A stretch of DNA of 25,126 nt, from the IMG/VR virus record IMGVR_UViG_3300023109_000127, positions 1-25,126 of that record; one strand, written 5' to 3'. Position numbers and translations under genes: made by a program. This stretch comes from a virus. This document shows, piece by piece, positions 3,001 to 22,392 of this stretch. Each line of letters begins with the position of its first letter. Within the stretch, counting starts at the first letter, position 1. The notes under the pieces were generated by a model. That model searched no databases. It worked only from the letters and a program-made list of their open reading frames with translations, and had not been told where the DNA came from.

Positions 3001-4158
3001 CAGAGAATTACAAAACAGCCATATAACGGTTCGTTGTTCAAATCACAGAACTCTTCAACATGGTCTGCATATCAGTATGAAGACTTGATGTTTAGATTGT
3101 ATCGTTGTGAGTTTGACACTTCGGCAACAGGTTACGCAACATTTAAGTCAGAAGCGGCTTCAGAGACAACTGGATTTAACTTATTCCAGTCACAGGTTTC
3201 TGTACTGAATGAAACATCTAAGACAGATGTTGAGTTTGGTTATAAAGCAACTGATAGTGTAACTGGACAGCAAGATGGCACATGGATTGGTCACGTTGAA
3301 AACCAGAACATCTATCTACCGAGAGAAAAATTTGTAGATACGACTGCTGGACGTTTCCAACTACAAGGTGCAATGCGCTCCACATCATCAACAATTTCAC
3401 CACTCATTGATACGAATGGTATGGCGATGATTGCAGTTGGTAACTACATTAACAATGCAGACTTGACAAACGAAGACTTCTTGGTAGTATCACCAGGTTC
3501 TGGATTTGACCCTGCGGCTCCGCCTTCAACAACAAACGGTAACATCACTATCTCTGGTGGCGGTGGTGCTGGTGTAGTTGCTCAGGCAGTTGTAGAGAGT
3601 GACGGTACTATCTCTGGAATCAACGTACTATCGGGTGGTGCTGGTTATGTTGAGACAGCGACAATTAGTGTAACTGCTGGAGCAGGTCAGACTGCACCAG
3701 ATATTAGAATGGGTGGCGAAACAAATGCTCGTGGCGGTAACGCACTTGCTCGTTATATTACTCGCCGTGTAACTCTAGCATCTGATACAGAGTCCGACCA
3801 AGTTCAAGTATTCTTGAATGCATATCGTCCTCGTGACACTCGCATCGAAGTTTACTACAAAGTATTGAATTCTTCAGACCAGACAGATTTTGACGATAGA
3901 CCATATGTTCGCATGGAGCAAGATACAACTTCTGCAAGTGTATTCTCAGTCACAGAAAAAGATATCAGAGAGTTGAGATATATTCCTGCACCAAATGTAC
4001 TTGATGCTGACAATATGAGAACTACTGCATACGCAGATAGTAATGGTACTCTATATACAACTTACAACACATTTGCGATTAAGATTTGTTTCTTCTCAAC
4101 TACAACTCAGAAAGTTCCATTCGCTTCTGACTTGCGCATTATGACAGGTAAGAAATAA
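1..4158 (+). CDS. Giant virion/baseplate structural protein, 3' part (DUF4815-like)
   Basis: The reading frame is open from the first base of the window, so the true start lies upstream; the ATG at 46 is internal to an already open frame. At least 1385 residues are visible. Around nt 1015-1200 is a segment with TMKDLGNLEKRV, YTALSLLEKQA and DPFEGHSIGDVANPDYDCS, which I recognise from large DUF4815-type structural proteins of marine T4-like phages. Around nt 2615-3115 a second conserved block reads GWYDPLAETFLVDP, then FFKTKDENLPVSVQIRP, EPGEYAIVVLTNS and LFKSQNSSTW. Near nt 3490-3720 there is a Gly-rich ISGGGGAGVVA...VLSGGAGY repeat unit like one in the next fibre gene. The role is probably a baseplate or fibre-attachment component, judged from family and position before the fibres. 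It ends TAATG, overlapping the next gene by one base. Confidence 0.75.
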   Translation, partial: SSDPNITFLKGDVLDMSTGDVLIDIPSSNNGGDLRVRFDGTVSSGFTININTTLNFDNGLEKPKTLVQRYINFVDAPNTDILNLYTSDCYKVIGVWDSGDANNPIDPVDIGTYTVNDDGDLIDTDGVTVAYTNIAQRYTFNTGQTDNLYKYGSLKLGTGATKPTGQVTVLFEYFQHSNVAGNISGMFTVNSYDDIDYVDVPTYTTTRGAKVDLRDSLDFRPRLRDATIPVTAGTAPTPDVYTVTANGANVTTFDEVQQALLSIPTGTVETDFSYFLSRIDRICITPDLELTVIKGKSALDPETPGDVDGAMTIYFLYVPAYTFSCSDIDPKFIENKRFTMKDLGNLEKRVSKVEFYTALSLLEKQAKDLSLFDENGNIILKTGILIDPFEGHSIGDVANPDYDCSIDFAKSILRPPFTSQQIRMEFDALNSTGVIKTGDVITLPYESRRLVNQPLTSKSINVNPYNVVNFLGSIDLNPPSDNWIDTETRPALNVNLQGENDAWRALIDVANEGIRRSPRIARQYGFGTQWNDWETTWTGTKKVSSETTTENRWYETSFQYFVPGKGRPIRGNDVTRETFEISNTEVRTGIKSEFVPETITKDLGNRILSVSIVPYIRPSGVLFKARGLKPNTNVYPYFDKQDVSQYVIPSQEVTVGAFVGDLFEDYETIEAYLVDGNNQQVGDTLASAVIVSGFFANPDQLRYVNVQKISSTFTGTGLEAFDPTQHPLVVNGTYLLKIRGTNATKFDAITGVTSARTQPTVTVISASNKAFGDSLITDSRGRVDGVFSIPNNDTIKFRTGERQFRLSDVSGTAKLDNSQTNADAVYTASGVKQVQQGLTVSTRVPSISRTSVREERTTTDVVTRETRGPSRIVGWYDPLAETFLVDPVRYPDGIMLSACDLFFKTKDENLPVSVQIRPTSNGYPSSNTVVPFGQVDIDPENVVLPTNVTDNASIINAPTRATFPSPVFLEPGEYAIVVLTNSLNYETYISEMGQNILGSSQRITKQPYNGSLFKSQNSSTWSAYQYEDLMFRLYRCEFDTSATGYATFKSEAASETTGFNLFQSQVSVLNETSKTDVEFGYKATDSVTGQQDGTWIGHVENQNIYLPREKFVDTTAGRFQLQGAMRSTSSTISPLIDTNGMAMIAVGNYINNADLTNEDFLVVSPGSGFDPAAPPSTTNGNITISGGGGAGVVAQAVVESDGTISGINVLSGGAGYVETATISVTAGAGQTAPDIRMGGETNARGGNALARYITRRVTLASDTESDQVQVFLNAYRPRDTRIEVYYKVLNSSDQTDFDDRPYVRMEQDTTSASVFSVTEKDIRELRYIPAPNVLDADNMRTTAYADSNGTLYTTYNTFAIKICFFSTTTQKVPFASDLRIMTGKK

Positions 4159-6434: not shown

Positions 6435-8594
6435 ATGCCAATAGCAAAATTAAGAGTTGATGATAGGATATCTGACTGGTATAATTCGACCAATGATATT
6501 ATTGACGAAATTAACAACGGTATTGGCGACAGAACACAGTTAGTAACCCAGTCTAAAGTTATTGTATCTGCAATCAACACACTTGGTGGTCCAGACTTTT
6601 GGACCGAGCCAAGACTTGCAGATGGTGCAGTTACTACTGAAAAGTTTGGTAACGGTGCAGTAAACACTTATAAGATTGAAAACAATCCTGAATTCAACGG
6701 AACATATTCTCGTCTACCTTCTGGTCTAACTTCGGAGAGACCTTATCAAGGTAGCGCAGTATCTTCTGTATTCTATAACGGAGATGCTGGCGAAGAATTT
6801 GTTATCACAGGCAACGGCTTTGACCCTGCAGGTGTACAAATTACTCTTGTCGGCACCGATAATTCAGAAGTTTCAGTTAGCAATGTTACTGTTGTCAGTT
6901 CTCATATTGTTAAGTTTCTCGTACCACAAACACTAGACCCAACACTAAAACCATACAGCGTAAAACTTGTAAACAACAATATTTCGGGTCAACCCGAAGT
7001 TGTTTCTACTGGCGTATTGAACTTTGGTGGTGGTCCTGTTTGGACTTCAAGGGCAGTCATTGGTGATTTTGAAGATTACCAATCACACTTGAAGGGTAAT
7101 GTTCAGTTCTTCTTAGATGCTCGTGACCCAGACCATAAGCCACTAAATTATTCTCTAGTATCAGGTTCACTACCATCAAATGCTACTATCTTTAATAGTG
7201 GTACTGTAAACATTCCAGAGTGTCCTCCACAGTATGTCGCATATAACTCACCAACAGCATTTTCGTTTATTGCAGATGCAGACGATGGTGTTAACCCACC
7301 TGTAAACTCTGGCACTTTGCAAATCAATGTTAGACCATCTTCACCTGCATCATTGTTGACTAACAACACAGTGAGAGCATGGTTTAGTGGTGCAAGTTGG
7401 AATGCTGGTGTCTGGCAAGACATGACAGGAAATGGATACGATACAATTTCACAAAGAGGTACAGTCTCTTCAGCAACTTGGTCGGGTACAGACACTTGGG
7501 GTGTATCAGATTATGATGCGAATAGAAATTTCAAATACATTCAAGGTTCGACTGCCGATGGATTATTTTTTCCACCAGAGATGACACCGAGCGTTGACCA
7601 AACTTATTTCATTGTTGCAAGATACACAGACCCAAATGATAATCAAGGTCGTATCTTTCTCACAAAGGGCGCAAATCTAACATTGTCACATTGGGGTGAT
7701 GCTGGTGGTTCTGGTCGATACCCAGGAAATGCCGGTGCTACTCACTGGAATCATTGGGTGGCTTCAAATGAAGACCGAAATGATTACCTGTATAACCATG
7801 AAGAAAACTGGATTATTTGGGCAGGTAATATTAATCACATTTTAACAAACGGTAGAAAAATAAACACAAGAGGCGGTGCCGCAGGTGCAGTTACCCAAAT
7901 GGGCATTAACGTCAATGATAGTTCATTCGCAGGTGGAACCGAGTTGTCTTCATGGGCTTGTGCAGAATTTATCGTAGTTGATGGTAATCTTTCTGAAGCA
8001 GAAATGAGAAACATTTCACATATGCTTGGTTGGAGATATGGTATTCCAATGTCTTCTAAAGTCGGCAATGTCCCTCGTGTAGGTCTAGTACATGCTCCTG
8101 CAAACAGAGCATTGGGTGTATGGGAAGATGACTTACCACTCACTATCAACTGGGGGGCAACGACTTGGAGCGTTGCAGGTAATGCAACATACCCTCTACC
8201 AGATTGGGCAGATGGAGCGTTGGGCACACTAAATATTAATACAAACCAAGGCGCTCCATCAAATGATGTTGGTATTACTAACCAGTATCTTGTAACTGAC
8301 AGACCGACTATTATTCGCCTATATAGGCAGAGTGGTTGGAACACAGTGGATGACTTTGGTCATTCTCTGTCTACATATACAAGAAGAACTGACTTAGAAG
8401 CAATTTGGACAGGCGCACCATTTGCATCGACAGACCTTGAGATTTATGAAAAATATGTTGAGGCGGGCGTTTATTCATTAGACTGCGATAGTGCGATGTA
8501 CCAATTCTTTGCTCCTGACCCAGACACCGATGTTGCTTCTAATCAACCAACACTACTAGAGAGTGCAGTAATTTGGTCTAAGCAACCACAATAG
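6435..8594 (+). CDS. Tail fibre/adhesin with IPT-like, cadherin-like and LamG/ConA-like domains
   Basis: This 719-residue protein begins with the shared anchor module (residues 10-50, DRISDWYNSTNDIIDEINN), followed by LADGAVTTEKFGNGAVNTYKI and the RLPSGLTSERP motif at 93-103. Residues about 112-195 look like an IPT/TIG beta-sandwich (GEEFVITGNGFDPAGVQITLVG). Residues about 205-300 resemble a cadherin-like repeat (ARDPDHKPLNYSLVSGSLP). Residues about 308-560 resemble a concanavalin/LamG-type lectin domain (VRAWFSGASWNAGVWQDMTG at the start and LSEAEMRNISHMLGWRYGI at the end). The last 160 residues are not recognised. It starts after AATGGAAG and has its own late promoter upstream. A sugar-binding or receptor-binding role is inferred from the domains. 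Confidence 0.8.
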   Translation: MPIAKLRVDDRISDWYNSTNDIIDEINNGIGDRTQLVTQSKVIVSAINTLGGPDFWTEPRLADGAVTTEKFGNGAVNTYKIENNPEFNGTYSRLPSGLTSERPYQGSAVSSVFYNGDAGEEFVITGNGFDPAGVQITLVGTDNSEVSVSNVTVVSSHIVKFLVPQTLDPTLKPYSVKLVNNNISGQPEVVSTGVLNFGGGPVWTSRAVIGDFEDYQSHLKGNVQFFLDARDPDHKPLNYSLVSGSLPSNATIFNSGTVNIPECPPQYVAYNSPTAFSFIADADDGVNPPVNSGTLQINVRPSSPASLLTNNTVRAWFSGASWNAGVWQDMTGNGYDTISQRGTVSSATWSGTDTWGVSDYDANRNFKYIQGSTADGLFFPPEMTPSVDQTYFIVARYTDPNDNQGRIFLTKGANLTLSHWGDAGGSGRYPGNAGATHWNHWVASNEDRNDYLYNHEENWIIWAGNINHILTNGRKINTRGGAAGAVTQMGINVNDSSFAGGTELSSWACAEFIVVDGNLSEAEMRNISHMLGWRYGIPMSSKVGNVPRVGLVHAPANRALGVWEDDLPLTINWGATTWSVAGNATYPLPDWADGALGTLNINTNQGAPSNDVGITNQYLVTDRPTIIRLYRQSGWNTVDDFGHSLSTYTRRTDLEAIWTGAPFASTDLEIYEKYVEAGVYSLDCDSAMYQFFAPDPDTDVASNQPTLLESAVIWSKQPQ

Positions 8595-8610: not shown

Positions 8611-11319
8611 ATGGCAACAGTTAATTACATTGTAACTACACAACAAGGTTTTCTCCACCCAGATGGTCCATCTGGTCCTGGAGTATTGGGTGGCATTTAC
8701 TTCCTAGATGGTCAAGAGTATGACACGATTAACGCAAACAGAGGTGATACCCTTGTTTTCGATATGTCTGATGCATCTAACGCAGGACATGAATTTAGAT
8801 TTACAACAGATTCCACTGACGCATATACAGAAAAATATACCCCAGGCGTAAATATTGTAGGGTTTGCAGGTACTCCAGGTTCGAGTGTAAGTATCACTAT
8901 TCCAAGCGATGCTCCAGATGAACTTTCAGTGTATTGTGTGTCTCACGGTATTCGTATGGGATTCGATATTAATGTATCGGGTACTGGTGGTATTCAAGGC
9001 ACATACAATTATGCAGTTACAGTAGTTCCTGGCAATCTATATGGTGGCGGGTCTGGTAACGTGTACTTACTTAACGGTGGTAGAGTTTTAGACTTAGATA
9101 TCACTCGTGGTAATCGTTATGTTTTCGACCAAACAGACGCTTCTAATATTGGACACACACTTCTATTCAGATACGAATCCAATGAGGGAAGCGGACTATT
9201 CAACCTAGAATGGACTGCTGGTGTTCGCACAAATGGTGGCTCCGCTGGTGTTGATAGAATTGTCACATTCCAAGTTCCGAAGAATGCTCCAGATGATATG
9301 CTATATGTCTGTGATGCTCACGGACAAGGTATGGGTGGTGAACTATCACTCACAGGAATATTCGGTGATACTATTGAAAACCCTGCTGACTTAGTTGAAA
9401 TTGGTCAGTATAGTAATCCAACAATTACAGATGTAACATTCTCACAACAGTTTTATGATGGTGCGTTGCGCTTTAACCAAACTCTTCACAGATATGAATT
9501 TTTCTCAGAAGAAGATGGCTGGGTTCAGACAACATATGCACCTACAGTTACAAGTGTAACGGGTAGCGTTTTTGATGGTGTTATAAACTCTATCGTTATT
9601 AACGGTGGCGGTTTTGATGAGAACATGACTGTTCAGATTGTTAGCATTAACGACTTATACACACCACTTACAAATCCTATAACATTTACATATGTAGATG
9701 AATACCAACTTAATGCGACTATCGATGCAAGGGCACCATACTCACTACAAGATGGTGTTGGTAATGTATTGGAAGCAATCGCATTTAGATTGACATCAGG
9801 AATTACAAACGCAAGAGCCGTTTCTGGTGAAGTTGAAATTGACCGTGACCCAGAGTTTGGACTTGCAACTCTTACAGTTCTTGGACGCTTTAATGTAAAT
9901 ACTCTGAATAATGGCGGTACAACCGATGTTGAAAACCCAGTAATTGTTTCTGCATCTGACCCAGATGATGTGGATGCAGTAGTAACATTTGAAGTTGCTC
10001 CAAACACAATGGGTTTTGGTACCAATAGAAACTTAGCATCTGACGGAACGACTGTTGGCGGAAGACCTCTAGGTTCTACTAGTTTAGACCCCAACCCACA
10101 GAATTCAAATTTCTCTGTTTTCTTTGAATACCAAGAACCAAATCAAGGTATTTTGAAAGGTGCAGTAAACCCGTGGTCAAATGGTGGTCCGGGTCATCCA
10201 GACTACGGGCAAAACTTTGGAACAAGCGTAAGATATCCAGGTGCATTAGAAGCAGACCACGATTTAACTGTTCGTGCAACGTCTTCAACTCCAGATGGTC
10301 GTCAAACAACTAAAGATGAAACTTTCAGAATGAAGGTTGTCACAGGTTGGAAGTACATCTCCAATATCTCACATCATTATGTGATGGGGGGTTATATCGG
10401 AGCAGAGAGTTGGCGTGTTGTTCATCGCTGTGACGCAAGCACAGATACAACAGTTTCTTTAGGCGTACAACTATCAGCAAATAGTGTAACAACACCAAAC
10501 GCAAACCGTTCGGGTGCAAGATATTCTTCAGAAGCCGTCAACAGATGGTCAGGTCAGGTTATCATTCTAGGTTCAAACCGTTTTGGTGGAGTTGCAGGTG
10601 ATGCACAAGACCAAGCAACTGAGAACTACAACATGATAACTGAAACTGCATATGGACTAACAACAAATGTTATGTCAGGAAAGCGTTACGATTGTCAAGG
10701 GTTCTCGTATGACCATGCACAAAAGGGTTATGCTCAAGGTGGTTATCACCCAGATGTTGGACTGTTGAATTCAACTGATAAGATAAACTTGGCTACTGCT
10801 ACAAGAGAAACTGTTATCACAAATCCAGGTGGTTATACCTCAAGTTATGGTGGTGCATCTGTATTTGGTCCAGTATTTGGAACTATGAACCAGGCGGGAA
10901 GAAGTACCCAAACACCAGATGGTGGATTCTACTTTGCATTCTCAACAGATACTCCATATGGGGGTAACTTCCAAGACTTGATTAACGAAGGCTTGACGGG
11001 TGCTGTTGGTAAAGCACTAACAACATGGCAAGACAGAAACTACTGGTTGGGTTACAATACTGTTGACACAGTTTGGTACGGTGACCAAAGTACAACAACA
11101 TACGGCATTGCACCTTTTGTTCAGACACTAAATAATGGTGAAGGTAACTGTTCTGGTGGACTTGCTCACGGATATTCTCTAGGTGCATATAATGGTGTAC
11201 AGAACAACCACGCAGATAGAATTAACTACTCTACAGAAACTTGTGTTCGTGTTTCCTCCGCTGACACGACAGGTAACACAGGAACTTCTTCAGCCGCAGT
11301 TGGTTGGGTTGAAAGATAA
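8611..11319 (+). CDS. Fibre/virion adhesin with two cupredoxin-like domains and repeat-rich C-terminus
   Basis: This 902-residue protein lacks the anchor module of its neighbours. It opens with two tandem domains of about 120 residues, each with RG(D/N)xxxFDxxDASNxGH near the middle and C-x2-H-x3-M near the end. The candidate type-1 copper ligands are H60/C109/H112/M116 and H182/C234/H237/M241. Residues 280-300 carry YDGALRFNQTLHRYEFF, the fibre IRYNT-like motif. Residues 310-400 look IPT/TIG-like, and residues 410-465 cadherin-like (VIVSASDPDDVDAVVTFEV). From about 580 to the end is the distal domain shared with the genes at 12130 and 13858 (ISNISHHYVMGGYIGAESWR, then NNGEGNC and YNGVQNNHADRIN), possibly a beta-propeller-like repeat fold. 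Copper binding is inferred from ligand spacing only. Confidence 0.8.
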   Translation: MATVNYIVTTQQGFLHPDGPSGPGVLGGIYFLDGQEYDTINANRGDTLVFDMSDASNAGHEFRFTTDSTDAYTEKYTPGVNIVGFAGTPGSSVSITIPSDAPDELSVYCVSHGIRMGFDINVSGTGGIQGTYNYAVTVVPGNLYGGGSGNVYLLNGGRVLDLDITRGNRYVFDQTDASNIGHTLLFRYESNEGSGLFNLEWTAGVRTNGGSAGVDRIVTFQVPKNAPDDMLYVCDAHGQGMGGELSLTGIFGDTIENPADLVEIGQYSNPTITDVTFSQQFYDGALRFNQTLHRYEFFSEEDGWVQTTYAPTVTSVTGSVFDGVINSIVINGGGFDENMTVQIVSINDLYTPLTNPITFTYVDEYQLNATIDARAPYSLQDGVGNVLEAIAFRLTSGITNARAVSGEVEIDRDPEFGLATLTVLGRFNVNTLNNGGTTDVENPVIVSASDPDDVDAVVTFEVAPNTMGFGTNRNLASDGTTVGGRPLGSTSLDPNPQNSNFSVFFEYQEPNQGILKGAVNPWSNGGPGHPDYGQNFGTSVRYPGALEADHDLTVRATSSTPDGRQTTKDETFRMKVVTGWKYISNISHHYVMGGYIGAESWRVVHRCDASTDTTVSLGVQLSANSVTTPNANRSGARYSSEAVNRWSGQVIILGSNRFGGVAGDAQDQATENYNMITETAYGLTTNVMSGKRYDCQGFSYDHAQKGYAQGGYHPDVGLLNSTDKINLATATRETVITNPGGYTSSYGGASVFGPVFGTMNQAGRSTQTPDGGFYFAFSTDTPYGGNFQDLINEGLTGAVGKALTTWQDRNYWLGYNTVDTVWYGDQSTTTYGIAPFVQTLNNGEGNCSGGLAHGYSLGAYNGVQNNHADRINYSTETCVRVSSADTTGNTGTSSAAVGWVER
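10484..10511 (+). repeat. 28-nt tract identical to 13058-13085 within paralogous fibre genes
   Basis: These 28 bases, encoding most of the TTPNANRS motif, are identical to 13058-13085; 19 of the bases recur at 14801-14819. The surrounding coding sequence is clearly diverged, so the tract may reflect exchange between the paralogues as well as protein constraint. Confidence 0.7.
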
Positions 11320-12129: not shown

Positions 12130-13854
12130 ATGGCTGTCACATTTATTACAGGTAAGAATAAACCAATCAATGCGTATGATGTTGACAATACGCAGATTAC
12201 TTATTCTATTGTAAGTCAGCCTGGTTCTGACATCACTGATTTTAATAACTCTGCCACTTCAGTTTCACTGGATACTAGCACTGCAATTACTGGTGTTTCG
12301 AAAGCAATCTCAGTTTGGGCGCTACAGTCTGCCAGTGCATCTCCAATTGTCATAAGTAATATTTCACTTGTAGAAGATGGTGTTGGTACAGAACTATTGA
12401 CCGATTCCGCATTAGAAGATATTACGAATTGGACTACTGCTGGTAGTGTAACTGACAATAACGATGGTACTTTCACTTCAGATGGTACTTCTGTTAATTC
12501 ACAGATTGCTCAGGATATTGCATTAACTGCAAACAGAAAATACAAACTAAGTGTAACTGCAAGTATTCCTGTTAATACAACAATGAGACTTGAGACATAC
12601 CATTTTGATGCTACAAATGTCGGTGCAGATGGTGTATACTCACAACAAACTTTTGTAGATTTTTCAGGTTCAGGTTCTGGTGAACTAACATACGATTTTG
12701 AATTCTTTCCTATGGAATCAACTCGTGTTAGTTCTGGTTCTACTGTAGCAAGAGCATTAAACGGTGGACCAGGTTCAGCGGACTATGGCACAAACAATAG
12801 TGCAAGTAAAACATATCGTCACATTAATACTTTCGAAAATACATATCCAATAACAATTCGTGCAACTGACCAGGCAGGTGAGATTGCAGAAAGAACTTTT
12901 ACTGTTAAGGCAACTCTCCCTTGGAGACACATTAGTAACATATCACATGCATTTGTTGCTGGTGGATACTATAATGCCGAAAGTTGGAGAACAGTGAACA
13001 GATGTGATGTTAATACTGATACAACTATTGACCTAGGTGGTCTAATGGCTAACAACGGTGTAACAACACCAAACGCAAACCGTTCAGGTATGAGATATTC
13101 GGATTCATCTAATGATAGATGGACAGGTAACGCAATTTGTTACTCAACATACGCATACGATGCAAACAATCACTGTGAAAACTTTAACATGATTACTAGC
13201 ACAATGTATGGTAATGGTGCAAGACTAAACAATTCAACAAACGCTAACCAAGCATGGGCTGATGATACACGAAGAACTGGATTCTATGGTGGTAACCCTG
13301 GTGTTTGGGAAAAATTCAGTCATGTTACTATGAACAGAATTACAGAATTTTCTGGATATCAAAGTTATTCGTATCATGCCGCTTTCATTAACGAAACTGG
13401 TGGATATACATATTCTGCAACTGGTGGCAATCAGACAGTAAATGAGCGACATGCTTTCGCTACTGATACAAGAACTACAGGTGCATTTGTGACAAATGCT
13501 ACATTCCAAGGTGGTACTGGTAACCACACTAAAGCAATCTCTACATATGGATATGGACAAGATGAGGCATGGATTGTTGGTTGGAATATTGTTGCAGACA
13601 CATGTATTGTAAGACTTTCGACTGGTACCGCAGTCACTGGACCTAATCAAACAATCAATAATGGTGAAGGTAACTGTGCATCAGGACCTGTGGATTCACA
13701 CGGTTATTCTCTTGGTGGCTATAATGGTTCACCTCAAAACAATCACGCAGATAGGATGAACTATGCGGCATCTACAATCACCCGTGTATCTGCCGCGGAT
13801 TTAAGACCACACTCAGGCGCATCGTCTGGTGGTAGAATGTGGGCGGAGTTATAA
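12130..13854 (+). CDS. Distal fibre/receptor-binding protein, paralogue 1
   Basis: This 574-residue protein begins MAVTFITGKNKPINAYDVDN, a cadherin-like start equivalent to residues about 440-460 of the 902-residue fibre. Residues about 85-195 resemble a CBM4/9-like carbohydrate-binding jelly roll (ELLTDSALEDITNWTTAG, then IAQDIALTANRKYKLSVTAS). After NGGPGSADYG (211-220) and a short beta domain, residues about 265-574 form the repeat-rich distal domain (ISHAFVAGGYYNAESWR, TTPNANRSGMRYS, NNGEGNC, YNGSPQNNHADRMN, SGGRMWAEL). AAGGG precedes the ATG by nine bases. An in-frame TAA lies just before the start, so it is not made by simple readthrough from the anchor gene. A sugar-receptor role is inferred. 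Confidence 0.8.
   Translation: MAVTFITGKNKPINAYDVDNTQITYSIVSQPGSDITDFNNSATSVSLDTSTAITGVSKAISVWALQSASASPIVISNISLVEDGVGTELLTDSALEDITNWTTAGSVTDNNDGTFTSDGTSVNSQIAQDIALTANRKYKLSVTASIPVNTTMRLETYHFDATNVGADGVYSQQTFVDFSGSGSGELTYDFEFFPMESTRVSSGSTVARALNGGPGSADYGTNNSASKTYRHINTFENTYPITIRATDQAGEIAERTFTVKATLPWRHISNISHAFVAGGYYNAESWRTVNRCDVNTDTTIDLGGLMANNGVTTPNANRSGMRYSDSSNDRWTGNAICYSTYAYDANNHCENFNMITSTMYGNGARLNNSTNANQAWADDTRRTGFYGGNPGVWEKFSHVTMNRITEFSGYQSYSYHAAFINETGGYTYSATGGNQTVNERHAFATDTRTTGAFVTNATFQGGTGNHTKAISTYGYGQDEAWIVGWNIVADTCIVRLSTGTAVTGPNQTINNGEGNCASGPVDSHGYSLGGYNGSPQNNHADRMNYAASTITRVSAADLRPHSGASSGGRMWAEL
13058..13085 (+). repeat. 28-nt tract identical to 10484-10511 within paralogous fibre genes
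   Basis: This is the second copy of the identical tract encoding part of TTPNANRS. A second shared tract of 21 bases encoding the NNGEGNC motif is identical at 11131-11151 and 13657-13677. Confidence 0.7.
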
Positions 13855-13857
13855 GAC

Positions 13858-15585
13858 ATGGCTGTTACTTTCATCACAGGTACTAACAAGGCAATTAACG
13901 CATTCGATAAGGATGCGCAATCCGTTACATATACACTAAAAGACCAACCAGGAACTCAGTTTGTTACTGGTAATGCAACCTCGAATGTATCACTCTTAAA
14001 TTCAACTGTTACAGGTGTGTCTAAACTTGCAGGTGTATTTGCGGTTAATTCTTCAGGTACAATTAACGTCTATAGTGCAAGTTTAACTGATGTTACAAAT
14101 TCAACAGAATATTACACAAACACCTCTTTTGATAATGGTGTCACAGACTGGATAGCCTCAGGTGACACTGGAACACAAATCACATCGACTTTCGTTGATG
14201 GTCAAGGTGACAACTATGTTCAAATGTCTGCAAGTGGTGGACAATACCAAGGTCTTTATCAAGCACCTGCACTTACAGCAAATAGAAAATATCGCTTTAC
14301 AGTAGATGCTCAAATTCCAATCGGTGCAACTTTAAGACTTGACAGTAGACACTTTGGTGTTAATAATACTGGTGCGCCTCAAGAAGGTTTCTTTAAGGAC
14401 TTTCAAGGTGATGGTATTCGTAAGACATTAACATTTGATTTTTATCCAACAGATACAGTAACGATTGACCCTGCGGGTTTACCAAATCGTTCTATCAATG
14501 GTGGATATGGTTCTGTTGACTATGGTGTAAACAGAACTTCAAGTAATACAGACACAGCACCCAACAGAAGATACCACGACCACCCAGTTAAAGTTGAAGC
14601 GGTTGATACAGAAGGTAACACGACAGAAGCAACATTTGTAATTCGTGCAGAACTTCCATGGACACACATTGCAAATCTAACACACGGTTATGTGGCTGGT
14701 GGTTATATTGGTACCGAAAGTTGGCGTCACGTTTGTAAAATGGATTATTCAACAGATGCTTCTGTTTCACTAGGTGATAAACTAGCAGGTAATGGGGTAG
14801 CAACACCAAACGCAAACCGCTCAGGCGCTCGTTATACAGATGGTTCTACTGATATTTGGACTGGTAACGGTATCTGTTATTCTTCATATGCATATGCAGA
14901 AAGTTCTTATACAGAGAACTTCAACATGATTACTGAAACTGCATATGGTGTGAATAACCAACATAATGGTAATCACTATGGGCAACAAGGTGCGTCTGAT
15001 TATGAAAGACGTATGGGATATTCTCATGCGGGTTCATTGAACGATACATCAACTGGTACTTCTCAATGTGAAAAGTTCAATATGTCTACAACAACTCGTG
15101 TTGGTGATATTGGACAAGCAACTGCATGGGTTTATCATGGTGGTGGTTTCACACAGACCCATATGTATTTTGCACAAGCAGGTTCTGGTACAACAGACTA
15201 CTATGATTTTGCAACTGAAAGTAGGCGAGGTAATGGTTGGACAAACAATACTGAGTTTACTGGTGGTACTTCACACACGAAAGCAATTTCTATGTGGGAC
15301 AACAGAGGCTGGTTCATTGGTTGGAACACTGTTGTGAACACATATATAATCAACTTCACCACTGGTGTTATGACCCGTGCTGGTGACCAAACAACAAACA
15401 ACGGCGAAGCAAACTGTCTGACTGCTATGAACCATGGTTATACTTGTGGAGCCTACAATGGCACACAGAACAACCACTCAGATAGGTTTAACTTTTCTAA
15501 CGGAACAGTAGCGAGAAATGCCGCTGGAGATAACAAAGGCTCACCAGGCGCATCATCGGGTGTTGCAATGTGGGCTGAATTATAG
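13858..15585 (+). CDS. Distal fibre/receptor-binding protein, paralogue 2
   Basis: This 575-residue tandem paralogue starts three bases after the previous stop, with GGAG inside the end of the preceding gene as ribosome site. The order of parts is the same: a MAVTFITGTNKAINAFDKDA cadherin-like start, a CBM4/9-like domain (YYTNTSFDNGVTDWIASG, then ALTANRKYRFTVDAQIP), a GGYGSVDYG linker, and the distal domain (THGYVAGGYIGTESWR, TPNANRSGARYT, NNGEANC, YNGTQNNHSDRFN, SGVAMWAEL). The ends and the TPNANRS core are well kept, while the central surface between them is strongly diverged, as expected if receptor binding differs. Whether the two paralogues sit on one fibre or are alternatives cannot be told. 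Confidence 0.8.
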   Translation: MAVTFITGTNKAINAFDKDAQSVTYTLKDQPGTQFVTGNATSNVSLLNSTVTGVSKLAGVFAVNSSGTINVYSASLTDVTNSTEYYTNTSFDNGVTDWIASGDTGTQITSTFVDGQGDNYVQMSASGGQYQGLYQAPALTANRKYRFTVDAQIPIGATLRLDSRHFGVNNTGAPQEGFFKDFQGDGIRKTLTFDFYPTDTVTIDPAGLPNRSINGGYGSVDYGVNRTSSNTDTAPNRRYHDHPVKVEAVDTEGNTTEATFVIRAELPWTHIANLTHGYVAGGYIGTESWRHVCKMDYSTDASVSLGDKLAGNGVATPNANRSGARYTDGSTDIWTGNGICYSSYAYAESSYTENFNMITETAYGVNNQHNGNHYGQQGASDYERRMGYSHAGSLNDTSTGTSQCEKFNMSTTTRVGDIGQATAWVYHGGGFTQTHMYFAQAGSGTTDYYDFATESRRGNGWTNNTEFTGGTSHTKAISMWDNRGWFIGWNTVVNTYIINFTTGVMTRAGDQTTNNGEANCLTAMNHGYTCGAYNGTQNNHSDRFNFSNGTVARNAAGDNKGSPGASSGVAMWAEL

Positions 15586-17357: not shown

Positions 17358-17386
17358 ATAATAACACACTTGTCAAGGGATGTCAA
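17358..17386 (-). promoter_or_regulatory. Candidate divergent sigma70 promoter
   Basis: On the minus strand, TTGACA (plus positions 17386 to 17381) is followed after exactly 17 bases by TATTAT (17363 to 17358), with TG at the extended -10 position. The match is 11 of 12 consensus bases. Transcription would run leftwards, antisense to the chaperone-like gene and the fibres. No convincing minus-strand gene follows. Confidence 0.45.
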
Positions 17387-17389
17387 GGG
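17371..17389 (+). repeat. Direct repeat TGTCAAGGG x2, 10-bp period
   Basis: TGTCAAGGG occurs at 17371-17379 and 17381-17389. Each copy contains the complement of a -35 box and each can pair with CTTGACA at 17400-17406, so there are two alternative left arms for one right arm. Confidence 0.7.
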
Positions 17390-17419
17390 CTTTTTTGGAC
17401 TTGACATCCTTTTTCTTTT
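17378..17419 (+). terminator. Intrinsic terminator after the fibre-assembly genes
   Basis: GGATGTCAAG (17378-17387) and CTTGACATCC (17400-17409) form a perfect 10-bp stem with a 12-nt loop. It extends to 13 bp with one G-T pair, and is followed by TTTTTCTTTT. It lies 70 bases after the stop of the gene at 16483. The right arm contains the TTGACA of the following promoter. Confidence 0.7.
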
Positions 17420-17429
17420 GTGGTATAAT
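17401..17429 (+). promoter_or_regulatory. Consensus sigma70 promoter for the oxygenase cassette
   Basis: TTGACA (17401-17406), a 17-base spacer and TATAAT (17424-17429) match the consensus at all 12 positions, with TGG giving an extended -10. The predicted start is near 17436, leaving about 25 bases of leader before the TTG start. It contrasts with the late boxes elsewhere, so early or host-polymerase expression is expected. Confidence 0.85.
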
Positions 17430-17460: not shown

Positions 17461-18153
17461 TTGTATTTCCTAGAATACACGCACGAACTTGTCAAGTATC
17501 AGTCTAATGAGCCTTTGAATCCAATGGCTCCAAATTGGACGCTACCTTTGATGCAGTCTCAAGTACACGATACTGAAGATTGGCACAGAGACTTGAGAGA
17601 GTACGCAGAAAACATCCCAAATCCCGATTACTTCAAAAAAGACACTATCAACTTAGAGTTTGATGGCTGGTCGACTGAAGAAACTAATCGCATTCCCGAA
17701 TACAACTTTTTGAGTACAGACAACTTTGCTGTCGCAGAGTTTCGTAACTTCATTCGTTCTTCACATGACATTTACTGCAAAGCACTAGGTATTGTTTTGA
17801 CAGATGAGATGAGAGAACATCTAAGAATTCAGTGTTGGGTGAACATACTTCCACCAGGTGAGAGTATCAAACCTCACAACCACTATTGTGGCGCAAACTC
17901 ATGGATTTCAGGCAACTATAGTCTTACAGCAAACAAAGACACATATACTGCATACTATGCACCGAGCCATGAAGTCAGAGTACAGAACAACCCAGGAATG
18001 CTTATTCAGTTTCCATCACACGTTGCTCACTACACCAATACATATAAGGGCAATGATAAAAGAATTACTATTGCGTATGATATATTCTTTGACAAACTCA
18101 GTCAGTGGTCAGGAGAATATGAAGCCTTGAAGGAGATGAAACTTTATGCATAA
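17461..18153 (+). CDS. Putative 2-oxoglutarate/Fe(II) oxygenase, divergent (oxygenase 1)
   Basis: This 230-residue protein opens the cassette from a TTG start behind GAGGTG. The C-terminal core shows the double-stranded beta-helix pattern: QCWVNILPPGESIKPHNHYCG (H139, H141), SWISGNYSLTA, a middle strand pair, then GMLIQFPSHVAHYTNTY (H187 or H190) and RITIAYDI with R201 as candidate 2OG-binding Arg. It resembles the phage oxygenases at 18146 and 19757 but is the most diverged of them. Like them it has HxH where classic enzymes have HxD/E, so the acidic iron ligand is not obvious. It overlaps the next gene by eight bases. The substrate is unknown; such enzymes hydroxylate proteins, nucleic acids or small molecules using 2-oxoglutarate and O2. 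Confidence 0.65.
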   Translation: MYFLEYTHELVKYQSNEPLNPMAPNWTLPLMQSQVHDTEDWHRDLREYAENIPNPDYFKKDTINLEFDGWSTEETNRIPEYNFLSTDNFAVAEFRNFIRSSHDIYCKALGIVLTDEMREHLRIQCWVNILPPGESIKPHNHYCGANSWISGNYSLTANKDTYTAYYAPSHEVRVQNNPGMLIQFPSHVAHYTNTYKGNDKRITIAYDIFFDKLSQWSGEYEALKEMKLYA

Positions 18154-18829
18154 AGTGAGTGATAATGTTTATTCAATTTTCCCATGCACATTACTACACA
18201 AGAAAATTGGAAATCAAAACTTAAATGAAGACTTGATGAATGTTGTTGATAGAATTGCAGACGCTGGTGACAACGTAGCAAACAAAGAAGGTGACTGGGT
18301 AGGTGGAAACTCTTCATATGGTTCTACGCAATCATCACACAATGTATTCTTATCTCAACCTGACGAATGTGTTCAAGAACTCAAAAGTAGAATTGACAAC
18401 AGTATAGAAGAGTTTCTTAGTGCAGAACTGAAGTCAGTTGAGAATATGCAACAGAGAGCCGCTAACAAAAACAACATTGAAATTTCAGATGTTAAATATG
18501 AATGGTACGGTTGGACAGTTCGAATGGAAGGACCAGATTGGAACGGTCTGCACATTCATCCCCAAACAAATTATTCTGGCGTTTACTATATAAATGTACC
18601 AGAACTACCTTACCCAGAGGGGTGTATTCAGTTTGTAAATCCTCATCCGATTGCAACTGCATATGGTAATGGGCAACCAGCGGGTGACTTCTACCCGACA
18701 AAAAGTGGAGACTTAATTATCTTTCCGTCATGGATGTCGCATTTAGTGATGCCTTATAGAGGGACCGATGAGAAGCGATATTGTTTAGCATTCAATGTCG
18801 TTGTTGAAAAATATTGGAGTGAAAAATGA
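18146..18829 (+). CDS. 2-oxoglutarate/Fe(II) oxygenase (oxygenase 2)
   Basis: This 227-residue protein resembles the TIGR02466 / 2OG-FeII_Oxy_5 type common in marine T4-like phages. Key signs are NGLHIHPQTNYSGVYYINVP (H136, H138), CIQFVNPHP, then SGDLIIFPSWMSHLVMPYRG with H199, and R211 in EKRYCLAF as the probable 2OG-binding Arg. AAGGAG lies 10 bases before the ATG inside the previous gene, and the two genes overlap by eight bases. It ends ATGA with the methyltransferase start. The substrate is not known. No signal peptide or membrane segment is seen, so it acts in the cytoplasm. Confidence 0.85.
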   Translation: MHKVSDNVYSIFPCTLLHKKIGNQNLNEDLMNVVDRIADAGDNVANKEGDWVGGNSSYGSTQSSHNVFLSQPDECVQELKSRIDNSIEEFLSAELKSVENMQQRAANKNNIEISDVKYEWYGWTVRMEGPDWNGLHIHPQTNYSGVYYINVPELPYPEGCIQFVNPHPIATAYGNGQPAGDFYPTKSGDLIIFPSWMSHLVMPYRGTDEKRYCLAFNVVVEKYWSEK

Positions 18830-19764
18830 AATTTGAAAAAGCAAGTAACGACCTGACTAGAACTAAAAATCTGGATGTCTCAAACTTAGAAACTATTACA
18901 GACTGGATTCGATTTGCGACTACTGCACTTTCGAATTACAATGTCTCATATCATCATATTGCTGATGGTGCGCATGAAGAAGCGGTTCAACTGTGTCTAA
19001 TGTGTATTGGATTGTCCAATGTTCCTGAGCAATGGGTGAATGCCCGACTTACACAAACAGAGATGAACAATCTGAAAGCCGCTATTGAAAGACGTTGCTT
19101 TGAACATGTTCCTGCATCATATATCACAAATAAAACTATTTTTGCTGATATCCCATTTTATGTTGATGAGCGAGTTATTATTCCACGTTCACCAATTCAA
19201 CAACTTATCCGAGACAATTTCAGCAATGTACTGAAAAACAAACCGAAGCGTGTACTAGATTTGTGTGCGGGTTCTGGTTGTATTGGTATTGCTATGGCAT
19301 TGAGAATGGAATCTATCGAAGAGGTTGTTCTCGGCGAATTGTCAGATGATGCTATCGAAGTTGCAAAGAGAAATATTGAGTTATTCGGGTTGCAAGATAA
19401 AGTTAAAATTGTCAAAACAGATATGTTTGAAAACATTGAAGGTGAGTTTGACTTGATTGTTACAAATCCTCCTTATGTCACTGACGAAGAGTGGGAAAAA
19501 CAGCCCGCAGAGACGCAATGTGAGCCACACATGGCACTTGTATCTAAAGATGAGGGAATGTATCATATTCGTGAAATTATGAACAACTCAGCCAATCATC
19601 TAACTGAAAGCGGTGTACTTCTATGCGAAGTTATGGATAGAAAGCCACAAGTTATTGCAGAATTTGGTGATAGAGTTAAGTTGAAATGGCTTGACTTGAC
19701 AGGACATCCTGCATTCCAGTTTAATATTTTTGGTACAAACAAAGGTGAATTGAAGAATGTCTGA
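18826..19764 (+). CDS. prmB: PrmB-type protein-glutamine N5-methyltransferase (uL3 modifier family)
   Basis: At 312 residues it matches the length of bacterial PrmB (about 310), and it is recognisable along its whole length. The N-terminal helical domain has DGAHEEAVQLCL and VNARLTQTE, like E. coli PrmB. A signature stretch reads ITNKTIFADIPFYVDERV followed by IIPRSPIQQLI (100-128), which separates PrmB from PrmC. SAM motif I is VLDLCAGSGCIGIA (143-156), the catalytic NPPY is at 214-217, followed by CEPHMALVSKDEG and GVLLCEV. Bacterial PrmB uses SAM to methylate a glutamine of ribosomal protein uL3 (Gln150 in E. coli). All motifs are intact, so it is probably active. It overlaps both neighbours (ATGA, then eight bases), so it is co-translated with the oxygenases. 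The target in infected cells is not known. Confidence 0.9.
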   Translation: MKFEKASNDLTRTKNLDVSNLETITDWIRFATTALSNYNVSYHHIADGAHEEAVQLCLMCIGLSNVPEQWVNARLTQTEMNNLKAAIERRCFEHVPASYITNKTIFADIPFYVDERVIIPRSPIQQLIRDNFSNVLKNKPKRVLDLCAGSGCIGIAMALRMESIEEVVLGELSDDAIEVAKRNIELFGLQDKVKIVKTDMFENIEGEFDLIVTNPPYVTDEEWEKQPAETQCEPHMALVSKDEGMYHIREIMNNSANHLTESGVLLCEVMDRKPQVIAEFGDRVKLKWLDLTGHPAFQFNIFGTNKGELKNV

Positions 19765-20446
19765 AAAGTTTGTTGATGCGATTGAGCCTAAACTTTTTTT
19801 CCCTACAGTAATCAGAGAGTTTCAACTCAATGGTTATGAAAAGGAGAATGATGAACTTCTCAGTGTTATACTTGAGAAAGAGGCTCGTTCACGCCCAACA
19901 TACGATACGAATAGTAGCAACTGGCAGACAGATGACTTTCTTCATAGAGAGCCAGAGTTTGCTTGGTTGTGTGAAGCCGCAGTGAAGTTAGGGAAAGAGT
20001 ATGTAGAATTCATGCAATATGTGTATGATGATATTGTACTACATGAGATGTGGGCTAACGTCTATCGCAGAGAAGAAGACTTACACCTACACTCGCACCC
20101 AAACAGTTTTTTGTCTGGTGTGTATTATATGACTGATGAAAATTCAGAGATTGAATTTCAAGACCCAAGAACTGACACTCGTTCAGTGATAATGCCAGCA
20201 CAATTCAATAGTTACTTCAATGCATTTACTATGCCAATCAAGCCTAAGAAGGGTATGTTTATTTTCTTCCCATCTTGGTTGAAACATTCTGTTGTTCCTC
20301 AGCCCGCAGGGTTTCGTGTATCTATCGCTTTCAATCTAATGTTAGAAGGGAAGATTGGTAGTAGAATGGACAAGACGGGTTCTGAATTACCCAAGAATGA
20401 AAATGCTTATCGACCAGAAAGAGACTTTGATAATGACTTACTCTGA
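19757..20446 (+). CDS. 2-oxoglutarate/Fe(II) oxygenase (oxygenase 3)
   Basis: This 229-residue protein is the best match in the cassette to the TIGR02466-like phage oxygenases. It shows EMWANVYRREEDLHLHSHPN (H110, H112, H114), SFLSGVYYMTDENSEIEFQDP, then KPKKGMFIFFPSWLKHSVVP with H177, and R187 in GFRVSIAFN as candidate 2OG-binding Arg. The N-terminal half is helical and acidic. The ATG follows AAAGGTG by nine bases and lies within the end of prmB. Sequence resemblance to oxygenase 2 is clear but distant, so they are not a recent duplication. The substrate is unknown. Confidence 0.87.
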   Translation: MSEKFVDAIEPKLFFPTVIREFQLNGYEKENDELLSVILEKEARSRPTYDTNSSNWQTDDFLHREPEFAWLCEAAVKLGKEYVEFMQYVYDDIVLHEMWANVYRREEDLHLHSHPNSFLSGVYYMTDENSEIEFQDPRTDTRSVIMPAQFNSYFNAFTMPIKPKKGMFIFFPSWLKHSVVPQPAGFRVSIAFNLMLEGKIGSRMDKTGSELPKNENAYRPERDFDNDLL

Positions 20447-21098
20447 TGATTATGTAACTGTCGTTGATGATGTGTGCGACCCTAATGTTATTCAAGCAAT
20501 TAAGGTACAGTACAACAATAATCTAAATGCATTTTATGCTGACGATAAAGATTGGGGTAACTCTAAATTACAGAAGCACCCAGGTCTTAGAGGGCGACAG
20601 ATTATTGCAGGTAAACATAAAGAAGCAGATTATCCTTCTGGTCACATAATCGATAAACTAATTCATGCAGTTTTAGAACAGATAGATTTTGAATGGGGTT
20701 GGGTTCGTGTTGATGAACGCTTGTATACCCCAGGTTCAGAAATGTCTTGGCATTGTGATGGCGCACACTTAGCAGGTGCGGCGACACTTTACTTAAACGA
20801 CTACTGGCACACAGATTGGGGTGGAGAATTCATATATGCTAAAAAGAATTTAGAAGTACACCCACAATGGCAACCTTTCATGCTGGAGACAGATGACTAT
20901 GCAAACGAGGTTGCAATCAATAATGAACTGGGTTGTGTTTATCCCAAGTTCAACCGTCTTGTCATTACGAACGGCGATGTAATGCACAAGATTAACAGAA
21001 TTGATGAACGTGCAAAGGCGAGATATGCTTTGCAGTTCCATTTTCATTATGAAACGGAGATGATTGCTACTAAAGCATCATCATTTTTAGACGATTAA
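20433..21098 (+). CDS. 2-oxoglutarate/Fe(II) oxygenase, prolyl-hydroxylase-like (oxygenase 4)
   Basis: I choose the ATG at 20433 (221 residues), not an upstream ATG at 20355 that would overlap the previous gene by 92 bases and add 26 residues resembling nothing. This protein has a canonical facial triad: H107-C-D109 in GSEMSWHCDGAH and H185 in NGDVMHKINRID, with R193 or R197 as 2OG-binding Arg. Other signs are VRVDERLYTPG before the triad and TDWGGEFIYAKKN between the ligands, as in prolyl 4-hydroxylase-type enzymes. It belongs to a different subfamily from oxygenases 1-3. It overlaps oxygenase 3 by 14 bases. The substrate is unknown. Confidence 0.85.
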   Translation: MTYSDDYVTVVDDVCDPNVIQAIKVQYNNNLNAFYADDKDWGNSKLQKHPGLRGRQIIAGKHKEADYPSGHIIDKLIHAVLEQIDFEWGWVRVDERLYTPGSEMSWHCDGAHLAGAATLYLNDYWHTDWGGEFIYAKKNLEVHPQWQPFMLETDDYANEVAINNELGCVYPKFNRLVITNGDVMHKINRIDERAKARYALQFHFHYETEMIATKASSFLDD

Positions 21099-21113: not shown

Positions 21114-22154
21114 TTGGAAAATATAGACTTGCTGTACAAGGGGCAAGAATACCTTCTGTTTATTGTATTCATTATGATGACCGCCGGGTTGATTAAAGAA
21201 AACAATTTGTTTGCAAGCGCATATGCTTACATTCAAAAAGTGTTCAAATCGAAACGTGTCATTGTCGCACTAATGTCTGCATTTACAGGTATTCTCCCCA
21301 TTTCGGGTCGAGTAACAGTTTCGGCTGGTATGCTTGATACACTTGCACCACCAAAAGGTGAAAAGGGAAGAGAGAAATTCGGTATCATCGATTATCTTTC
21401 AACTCATCACTATTATGTCTGGTCACCGCTAGAGAAGACAATTCTTGTCCCTATGGCGGCACTGGGAATTGGGTATGGTGCTGTTCTGTTTCATCTTCTA
21501 CCTCTACTGGTAGTTTCTCTTGCACTTGTAATTGCATACATTGCTTTTGCAGTCAGTGAAGATGATATCGAACTGAATGTTTCAAATGAACACTTCAAAG
21601 TATCAAATATCATTCGTAACGTAATACCTTTTCTGATTGCGATTGCTGTGGCTATTGCTGGAATCAATCCAGTTATCGTATTTGGTATGCTGACACTTTA
21701 CTATATGATTTTGACTTTGACATGGGACTGGAACAAGTTGCTCGGTTTCGTTGACTTCAAACTTTTAGCGTGGGTTGCATTGATTATCATTGTAGCAAAC
21801 GTAACAAGAGAAAACACAGACGCTATTAAAGCATATCTGGAGAATAGTCCATTTGATATCACCACTACATGGGGTTTTATTTCAATTAGTGCTATATCTT
21901 TAGGTTCTGCATTTTTGTTTGGCTCAAGTGGTCGCTTTGCGGCAATCACCACAATTCTCACACTTGTTTATGGTGTTGAGTATTTTGTTTGGTTCTTTGC
22001 ACTTGATTTTATCGGGTATCTTATCTCTCCTATGCACAAATGCATGGCGATTGGTAAATTATATTTCGATACGCCGTGGTCTAAATACTTTAGCGCACTG
22101 GGTGTTTGGTCACTGCTACTGCTTATTGCAGGTGGAGCAACCTTACTAATTTAA
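21114..22154 (+). CDS. Polytopic membrane protein, DUF401/ion-transporter-like permease
   Basis: This 346-residue protein has about eight to ten hydrophobic helices (near residues 11-27, 48-64, 105-125, 127-148, 166-200, 216-230, 252-270, 275-300 and 325-346). Two related blocks point to an internally repeated transporter fold: TGILPISGRVTVSAGML (58-74) with a following HHYYVWSPLEKTIL (98-111), and AFLFGSSGRFAAITT (266-280) with YFVWFFALDFIGYLISPMHK (290-309). The STHHYYVWSPLE and ISPMHKCM patterns recall DUF401 integral membrane proteins, which are distant members of the ion transporter superfamily. Translation starts at TTG behind GAAGGAG. It follows oxygenase 4 by 15 bases and precedes a terminator, so it is the last gene of the cassette. 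The substrate is unknown; an organic acid is only a guess. Confidence 0.75.
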   Translation: MENIDLLYKGQEYLLFIVFIMMTAGLIKENNLFASAYAYIQKVFKSKRVIVALMSAFTGILPISGRVTVSAGMLDTLAPPKGEKGREKFGIIDYLSTHHYYVWSPLEKTILVPMAALGIGYGAVLFHLLPLLVVSLALVIAYIAFAVSEDDIELNVSNEHFKVSNIIRNVIPFLIAIAVAIAGINPVIVFGMLTLYYMILTLTWDWNKLLGFVDFKLLAWVALIIIVANVTRENTDAIKAYLENSPFDITTTWGFISISAISLGSAFLFGSSGRFAAITTILTLVYGVEYFVWFFALDFIGYLISPMHKCMAIGKLYFDTPWSKYFSALGVWSLLLLIAGGATLLI

Positions 22155-22186: not shown

Positions 22187-22228
22187 AAGCCCTCAGCGCA
22201 TTATAAATAGATGTGTTGGGGGCTTTTT
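22187..22228 (+). terminator. Intrinsic terminator with a late promoter in its loop
   Basis: Bases 22187-22200 pair with 22212-22225 in a continuous 14-bp stem (AAGCCCTCAGCGCA against TGTGTTGGGGGCTT, with three G-T pairs), followed by a short T-tract ending at 22228. The 11-nt loop is TTATAAATAGA. It lies 32 bases after the permease stop codon and should end readthrough from the sigma70 promoter. Confidence 0.75.
22202..22209 (+). promoter_or_regulatory. T4-type late promoter box in a terminator loop
   Basis: TATAAATA is an exact late consensus. By T4 geometry the start site would be near 22215, inside the right arm of the terminator stem. The late RNA would therefore lack the left arm and could not be terminated here. 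It should drive the small Cys-rich gene and gp13 to gp16. Confidence 0.75.
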
Positions 22229-22230
22229 AT

Positions 22231-22392
22231 ATGGCTGTTGTAGCAAAACATAGTGAAACTAAAAGACGTATAGATATTTGTGAGAAATGTGAAAAACTGT
22301 GGGCAACTTTCAAAGTATGCTCTGTTTGCAAATGCCCGATTAAAACTAAGACGCAACTTCAGGCGTCAACATGTCCTATAGGAAAATGGTAA
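22231..22392 (+). CDS. Small cysteine-rich putative zinc-binding protein
   Basis: This 53-residue protein is encoded by an ATG 16 bases after the predicted late start site. It is basic and carries CEKC (17-20), then C-x2-C-x-C in VCSVCKCPI (30, 33, 35), and ends with CPIGKW (C48). Two CxxC pairs suggest a zinc ribbon or knuckle. Its stop is one base before the gp13 start. The ribosome site is weak (GGGGG at 22218-22222). Similar tiny 'CxxC...CPxGKW' proteins occur beside neck genes in marine T4-like phages, from memory. Function is unknown. Confidence 0.75.
   Translation: MAVVAKHSETKRRIDICEKCEKLWATFKVCSVCKCPIKTKTQLQASTCPIGKW

Follow-up and report, generated by a model that had tools for sequence, protein, structure and literature searches.

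A PrmB-type glutamine methyltransferase gene within a 2OG oxygenase cassette of a T4-like phage

Background

Few unexplained accessory genes of marine phages are as frequent as those for 2-oxoglutarate (2OG)/Fe(II) oxygenases, which are enriched in seasonal viruses (PMC11561400), and a literature search found no tested substrate for the marine phage enzymes. The viral contig analyzed here (25,126 bases; hereafter, the window), which comes from the part of a T4-like phage genome that codes for structural proteins, carries four such genes in one run with a gene of the PrmB family of ribosomal protein methyltransferases, raising the question of which proteins a gene set of this composition might modify.

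Organization and conservation of the cassette

In the window, long fibre genes and two conserved genes, p1 and p2, are followed by the cassette and then by homologues of gp13, gp14, and gp15. The five-gene coupled operon of the original prediction was borne out in coordinates, strand and overlaps: the genes occupy positions 17461–21098 on the plus strand, with successive overlaps of 8, 4, 8, and 14 bases. They comprise the oxygenase genes oxA (17461..18153, with a TTG start) and oxB (18146..18829), the gene prmB (18826..19764) coding for a PrmB-type (uL3-Gln) N5-glutamine methyltransferase, and the oxygenase genes oxC (19757..20446) and oxD (20433..21098, counted from its ATG). The predicted end of the unit, however, has to be moved, since a gene for a polytopic membrane protein (mem, 21114..22154, plus strand, TTG start; phrog_14035) starts 15 bases past oxD with a strong ribosome-binding site and belongs to it as well. 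The cassette thus is a six-gene transcription unit, oxA-oxB-prmB-oxC-oxD-mem. The mem product showed no Pfam match, and no relatives were found in 200 Pseudomonadota genomes searched. Within the run of long, diverse fibre genes of the window, f4 (8611–11319), f6 (12130–13854), and f7 (13858–15585) appear to be paralogs whose C-terminal domains are alike; PHROG 1417 is matched by the C-terminal parts of f6 and f7.

Recurrence of the gene order in another phage genome, which had been proposed as a check, was found in a sister contig (IMG/VR 3300017913_000273), in which the complete gene set recurs in unchanged order, the proteins being 72–86% identical; the TTG start of oxA is conserved there, and mem is 86% identical. 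The end of the cassette is also present on a third contig, whose sequence is almost that of the window. A scan for relatives with p2 retrieved the sister alone, the pattern scans being non-exhaustive. Between window and sister, all six cassette genes showed dN/dS values of 0.06–0.13, as compared to 0.05–0.09 for gp13–gp15 and 0.17–0.18 for the fibre genes; these values are rough, because synonymous sites are nearly saturated. The purifying selection acting on the cassette genes parallels that on the structural genes, indicating that these open frames are not there by chance.

Control sequences

A consensus sigma-70 promoter (TTGACA-N17-TATAAT with an extended –10, TG; 17401..17429, plus strand) is located directly upstream of oxA. 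Matching 12 of 12 positions, it is the sole zero-mismatch sigma-70 site in the window, as compared to about 0.003 perfect matches expected, both strands counted, in a sequence as long as the window with equal base frequencies; the orthologous place in the sister matches 11 of the 12 positions. The upstream structural transcription unit is closed by a terminator-like hairpin with a T run after the stem (17375..17412, plus strand; RNA fold –19.9 kcal/mol, z –5.1). The stem at this place in the sister (–17.7, z –5.1) differs by a compensatory pair change, GGATGTCAAG/CTTGACATCC in the window versus GGTTGTCAAG/CTTGACAACC in the sister. Another terminator-like hairpin, also conserved in the sister, closes the cassette (22187..22225, plus strand; –24.7 kcal/mol, z –6.6), and its loop contains the late-promoter box TATAAATA of the gp13 unit (22202–22209, plus strand). 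Five copies of TATAAATA, which we take to be the T4 late promoter box, were observed in the window versus 1.3 expected. They are located ahead of fibre genes, of p1 and p2, and of the gp13 unit, mostly at orthologous places in the sister; a scan of the window revealed none before the cassette. In both sister phages, the gene that follows the box-containing terminator loop codes for a small zinc-ribbon-like protein (22231–22392; PHROG 13558).

Transcription of the cassette probably starts at the consensus promoter by means of the host sigma-70 RNA polymerase. From the presence of this promoter and the absence of a TATAAATA box before the cassette we infer early or continuous expression, perhaps early. 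T4 early promoters are of the –35/TGn/–10 kind (PMC2988021).

The methyltransferase

The assignment of the third gene to PrmB in the original prediction was supported. Its product scored 289.4 bits against the PrmB model TIGR03533 (curated cut-off 229.7) and 181.9 bits against the PrmC model, which is below the cut-off of 199.1; the sister protein reached 285.5 bits with TIGR03533. Since E. coli alone among 14 control genomes passed the TIGR03533 cut-off, the model discriminates well. The phage protein is about 35–43% identical to cellular PrmB proteins and has the catalytic NPPY and the PrmB-type core motifs in common with them: NPPYV (214–218), VDERV..PRSPI, and the SAM-binding loop LDLCAGSGC (C.GSGC) are kept, as are 24 of the 37 PrmB-diagnostic residues, which cellular PrmB proteins conserve but PrmC proteins do not. 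Unlike the cellular enzymes, however, it is encoded in an oxygenase operon and has lost conserved N-terminal and C-terminal residues; G45, G241, G270, P282, G294, and G297, which are near-invariant in bacterial PrmB, are missing. Given these losses and the long branch of the phage protein in the tree, a change of substrate is conceivable.

The E. coli enzyme methylates L3 at Gln150 and accepts only particles whose assembly is incomplete; without it, assembly becomes cold-sensitive (PMC3347575). With core and most diagnostic residues kept and several near-invariant residues lost, uL3 appears to be the likeliest, albeit not certain, substrate of the phage enzyme. Scanning the phage proteins for GGQ- or uL3-like glutamine motifs yielded no clear candidate substrate.

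The oxygenases

As predicted, three of the oxygenases share an HxH...H...R pattern and the fourth carries an HCD...H motif, which is kept in the sister. The three belong to PF13759 (44.1, 62.9, and 71.3 bits for OxA, OxB, and OxC, respectively; cut-off 27), and OxD belongs to PF13640 (34.2 bits; cut-off 27). With TIGR02466, OxC (80 bits) alone exceeded the curated cut-off of 62.5, OxB and OxA scoring 51.3 and 27.1. The HxH...H...R residues, invariant across OxA (H139-x-H141...H190...R201), OxB, and OxC, correspond in OxC to H112, H114, H177, and R187, which are also invariant in 69 aligned sequences.

An AlphaFold2 model of OxC built with 68 homologues (pLDDT 88, pTM 0.85) confirmed the 2OG fold for this protein, the sole oxygenase so modelled; the fold evidence covers OxC alone, as the OxD model reached a pLDDT of only 29. 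According to the model, OxC has a fold of the prolyl hydroxylase type with a double-stranded beta-helix. The nearest solved structures, 3bvc (Z 20.1) and 2rg4 (Z 19.0), are uncharacterized roseobacter proteins of PF13759, which have the HxH motif in common with OxC but show only 19–21% sequence identity to it. The next fold relatives are HIF and Pseudomonas prolyl hydroxylases, namely PHD2 and the P. putida P4H, which acts on EF-Tu and was solved with this substrate (Z about 14–15, at 12–14% identity). These prolyl hydroxylases carry an HxD triad, which is also present in OxD, in contrast to the HxH of OxA, OxB, and OxC. As all 69 sequences keep HxH and the solved relatives carry it too, the metal site may have three histidines.

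The original prediction had drawn a parallel to RoxA/YcfD, MINA53, and NO66, which modify ribosomal proteins (PMC4682802). The 2OG chemistry is common to these enzymes and the cassette oxygenases; however, the former are members of the JmjC/cupin-4 subfamily, whereas the latter belong to a different one, and no JmjC or cupin-4 Pfam match was detected in OxA–OxD at E values up to 1. As the fold relatives of OxC are prolyl hydroxylases and two marine bacterial proteins, this parallel is weaker than that to the prolyl hydroxylases.

Homologues of oxD in cyanophages are annotated as ‘DNA endonuclease V’, and relatives of oxD are found among the phage proteins so named (2696–3208 of locus L013 and 7034–7633 of locus L114; PHROG 274, 19810). 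The name is doubtful, because the L114 protein, the one scanned, matches PF13640; the label probably is a misannotation.

Oxygenase arrays and PrmB in other phages

The original prediction described single 2OG oxygenases as frequent in T4-like cyanophages; a mostly single occurrence was not supported, arrays being common. Abutting 2OG genes were present in 53 of 83 viral loci (80 fetched with the OxC profile, the window, the sister, and the contig L112 described below), and cyanophage S-SCSM1 contains 24 2OG oxygenase genes (PMC9602691). Pelagibacter phage Mosig EXVC030M, like the window, harbors an overlapping run of 2OG oxygenase genes between fibre genes and gp13, together with genes for ferrochelatase, heme oxygenase, and PcyA, and has a late TATAAATA box ahead of the gene that immediately precedes this run. 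In Synechococcus phage S-ShM2, four overlapping or abutting 2OG-like genes (three PF13759 and one weak DUF6445, which is 2OG-type or related) directly follow a p1 homologue; this array abuts its upstream gene without a promoter gap, whereas the window cassette has its sigma-70 promoter and two hairpins. In S-CAM4, an oxD homologue abuts a PF13759 gene beside fibre genes, and another PF13759 gene is located just before gp13. The window and sister cassettes, with their abutting 2OG genes near fibre and neck genes (gp13/14/15), thus resemble the arrays of marine T4-like phages, for which four oxygenases in a row are ordinary, and the oxygenase array as such is already on record. In contrast to the window, however, PrmB is absent from the arrays of Mosig, S-ShM2, S-CAM4, and S-SCSM1, and no PrmB match was found at any of the 80 viral loci with an oxC relative.

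Bacterial-type prmB genes occur in the phage-labelled records OR845722, OR850995, CAKLQH020000018, and CAKLQF020000010, probably due to bacterial contamination; the Acinetobacter record examined has bacterial neighbours. Unannotated fecal contigs aside, the examined PrmB hits in phage records, prmB genes of E. coli and Acinetobacter, were rejected as bacterial DNA. The prmB gene of Leptolyngbya phage Lsp-JY19 is N-terminally truncated and located near the end of a transposable-phage record, and probably is host flank. Likewise, the prmB genes of loci L109–L111, which lie beside prophage or phage-like DNA, were judged bacterial.

A PrmB-like gene was, however, identified on an unrelated T4-like contig, L112 (IMG/VR 3300031804_000227), which codes for a T4-type RNase H. 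It is located directly behind three abutting PF13640 oxygenase genes, which are preceded by a ClpP gene and a PF13759-like gene. Its product is 30% identical to the PrmB of the window, contains NPPW in place of NPPY, and scored 218 bits against TIGR03533, just below the cut-off of 229.7. Both methyltransferases form long branches in the tree and may or may not share an origin. The ClpP protease gene (2387–3007) lies inside the run of 2OG and PrmB-like genes. Downstream of the methyltransferase gene, two sigma-70 promoters matching 12 of 12 positions (6709–6737 and 10640–10667) and several matching 11 of 12 suggest an early-gene region.

A literature search found, with the terms used, no paper linking PrmB or glutamine methyltransferase to phages or to accessory genes of viruses. 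If the ribosome is its target, the phage enzyme would to our knowledge be the first ribosomal-protein methyltransferase described from an oxygenase operon of a phage. The novelty lies in the PrmB gene, the control region of the cassette, and the second occurrence of a PrmB-like gene beside oxygenase genes in L112.

Possible roles of the cassette

Our preferred explanation, held tentatively and rated somewhat short of an even chance, is that the cassette makes a set of protein-modifying enzymes together, early or throughout infection, with PrmB acting on uL3 and the oxygenases on other proteins. The host sigma-70 RNA polymerase would start its transcription, whereas the structural genes on either side would await the late sigma factor. 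PrmB would methylate the glutamine equivalent to uL3 Gln150 in 50S particles assembling during infection, and the targets hydroxylated by the oxygenases would be other proteins, belonging either to the translation apparatus or to the virion. The overlapping genes with their ribosome-binding sites, the sigma-70 promoter, the hairpins, and the conservation in the sister argue for this explanation. The score with the PrmB model and the motifs kept, the PrmB-like gene behind 2OG oxygenases in L112, the fold relatives of OxC including the Pseudomonas enzyme acting on EF-Tu, and the restriction of PrmB action to assembly intermediates also support it, as does the precedent of the early T4 protein ModB, which modifies host translation factors (PMC2988021). 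The long branch of the phage PrmB and its lost residues count against this explanation, as do the arrays of Mosig and S-ShM2, whose position in or directly behind late structural genes fits virion substrates.

The main rival, given that arrays in other phages are part of late units next to fibre genes, is modification of the virion: the oxygenases would hydroxylate, and the methyltransferase would methylate, tail-fibre or other structural proteins, altering stability or receptor binding. The position of the cassette beside fibre genes weighs for such a role. The 2OG arrays of the window lineage, Mosig, and S-CAM4 lie between fibre genes and gp13, that of S-ShM2 directly behind fibre genes and the p1 homologue, and the late TATAAATA box of Mosig and the long, diverse fibre gene run of the window fit as well. 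However, the sigma-70 promoter of the cassette, with the hairpins insulating it from the late units, counts somewhat against a purely late, virion-directed role, PrmB belongs to a family of uL3 enzymes rather than fibre enzymes, and 2OG genes elsewhere are also found among uvsW, gp46/gp47, and other replication genes, away from fibres. On balance we regard virion modification as possible but doubtful. A metabolic role, with 2-oxoglutarate turnover by the oxygenases, a change in nitrogen signalling, Mem as a transporter and PrmB as an unrelated passenger, would agree with a published proposal for cyanophage 2OG oxygenases (PMC3037559) and with the co-transcribed membrane protein. It would require neither four different oxygenases nor PrmB, though, and prmB is constrained to the degree of the other cassette genes and has its counterpart beside 2OG genes in L112; Mem, in addition, has no Pfam match. 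We consider this role very unlikely.

PrmB and all four oxygenases might also form a single remodelling system whose targets are ribosomal proteins or translation factors. The identity of PrmB, the EF-Tu-hydroxylating fold relatives of OxC, the L112 gene pairing, and the hydroxylation of uS12 reported for the PHD-related OGFOD1 (PMC4396695) point in this direction. Most 2OG arrays of phages, however, come without a partner that modifies ribosomes, a PrmB match being missing from all 80 loci with oxC relatives, and a ribosome-only module seems quite unlikely. The ribosome hypothesis in itself is plausible. Its fuller version, that early phage PrmB methylates uL3 in new 50S particles and the oxygenases hydroxylate ribosomal proteins or translation factors so as to favour phage messages, is in our estimation unlikely; if true, it would supply the large 2OG arrays of phages, which are still unexplained, with a first class of substrates. 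The prmB gene, fixed within such an array and under purifying selection, and the PrmB-like gene next to 2OG genes in L112 offer a concrete, testable hint at one substrate class, the translation apparatus. PrmB is rare in marine phage oxygenase arrays, and its presence here suggests that some 2OG oxygenases may act on host proteins, for example of the ribosome.

Peptide deformylase genes were noticed at or next to 2OG oxygenase genes in Mosig and three viral contigs (loci L009, L162, L165, and L214); as a translation link for 2OG genes this was dismissed, 3 of 15 loci being too few to count. A 167-kb virus record (locus L222, 6376–10625) contains about seven consecutive, mostly overlapping 2OG-like genes, not all of those scanned matching Pfam families.
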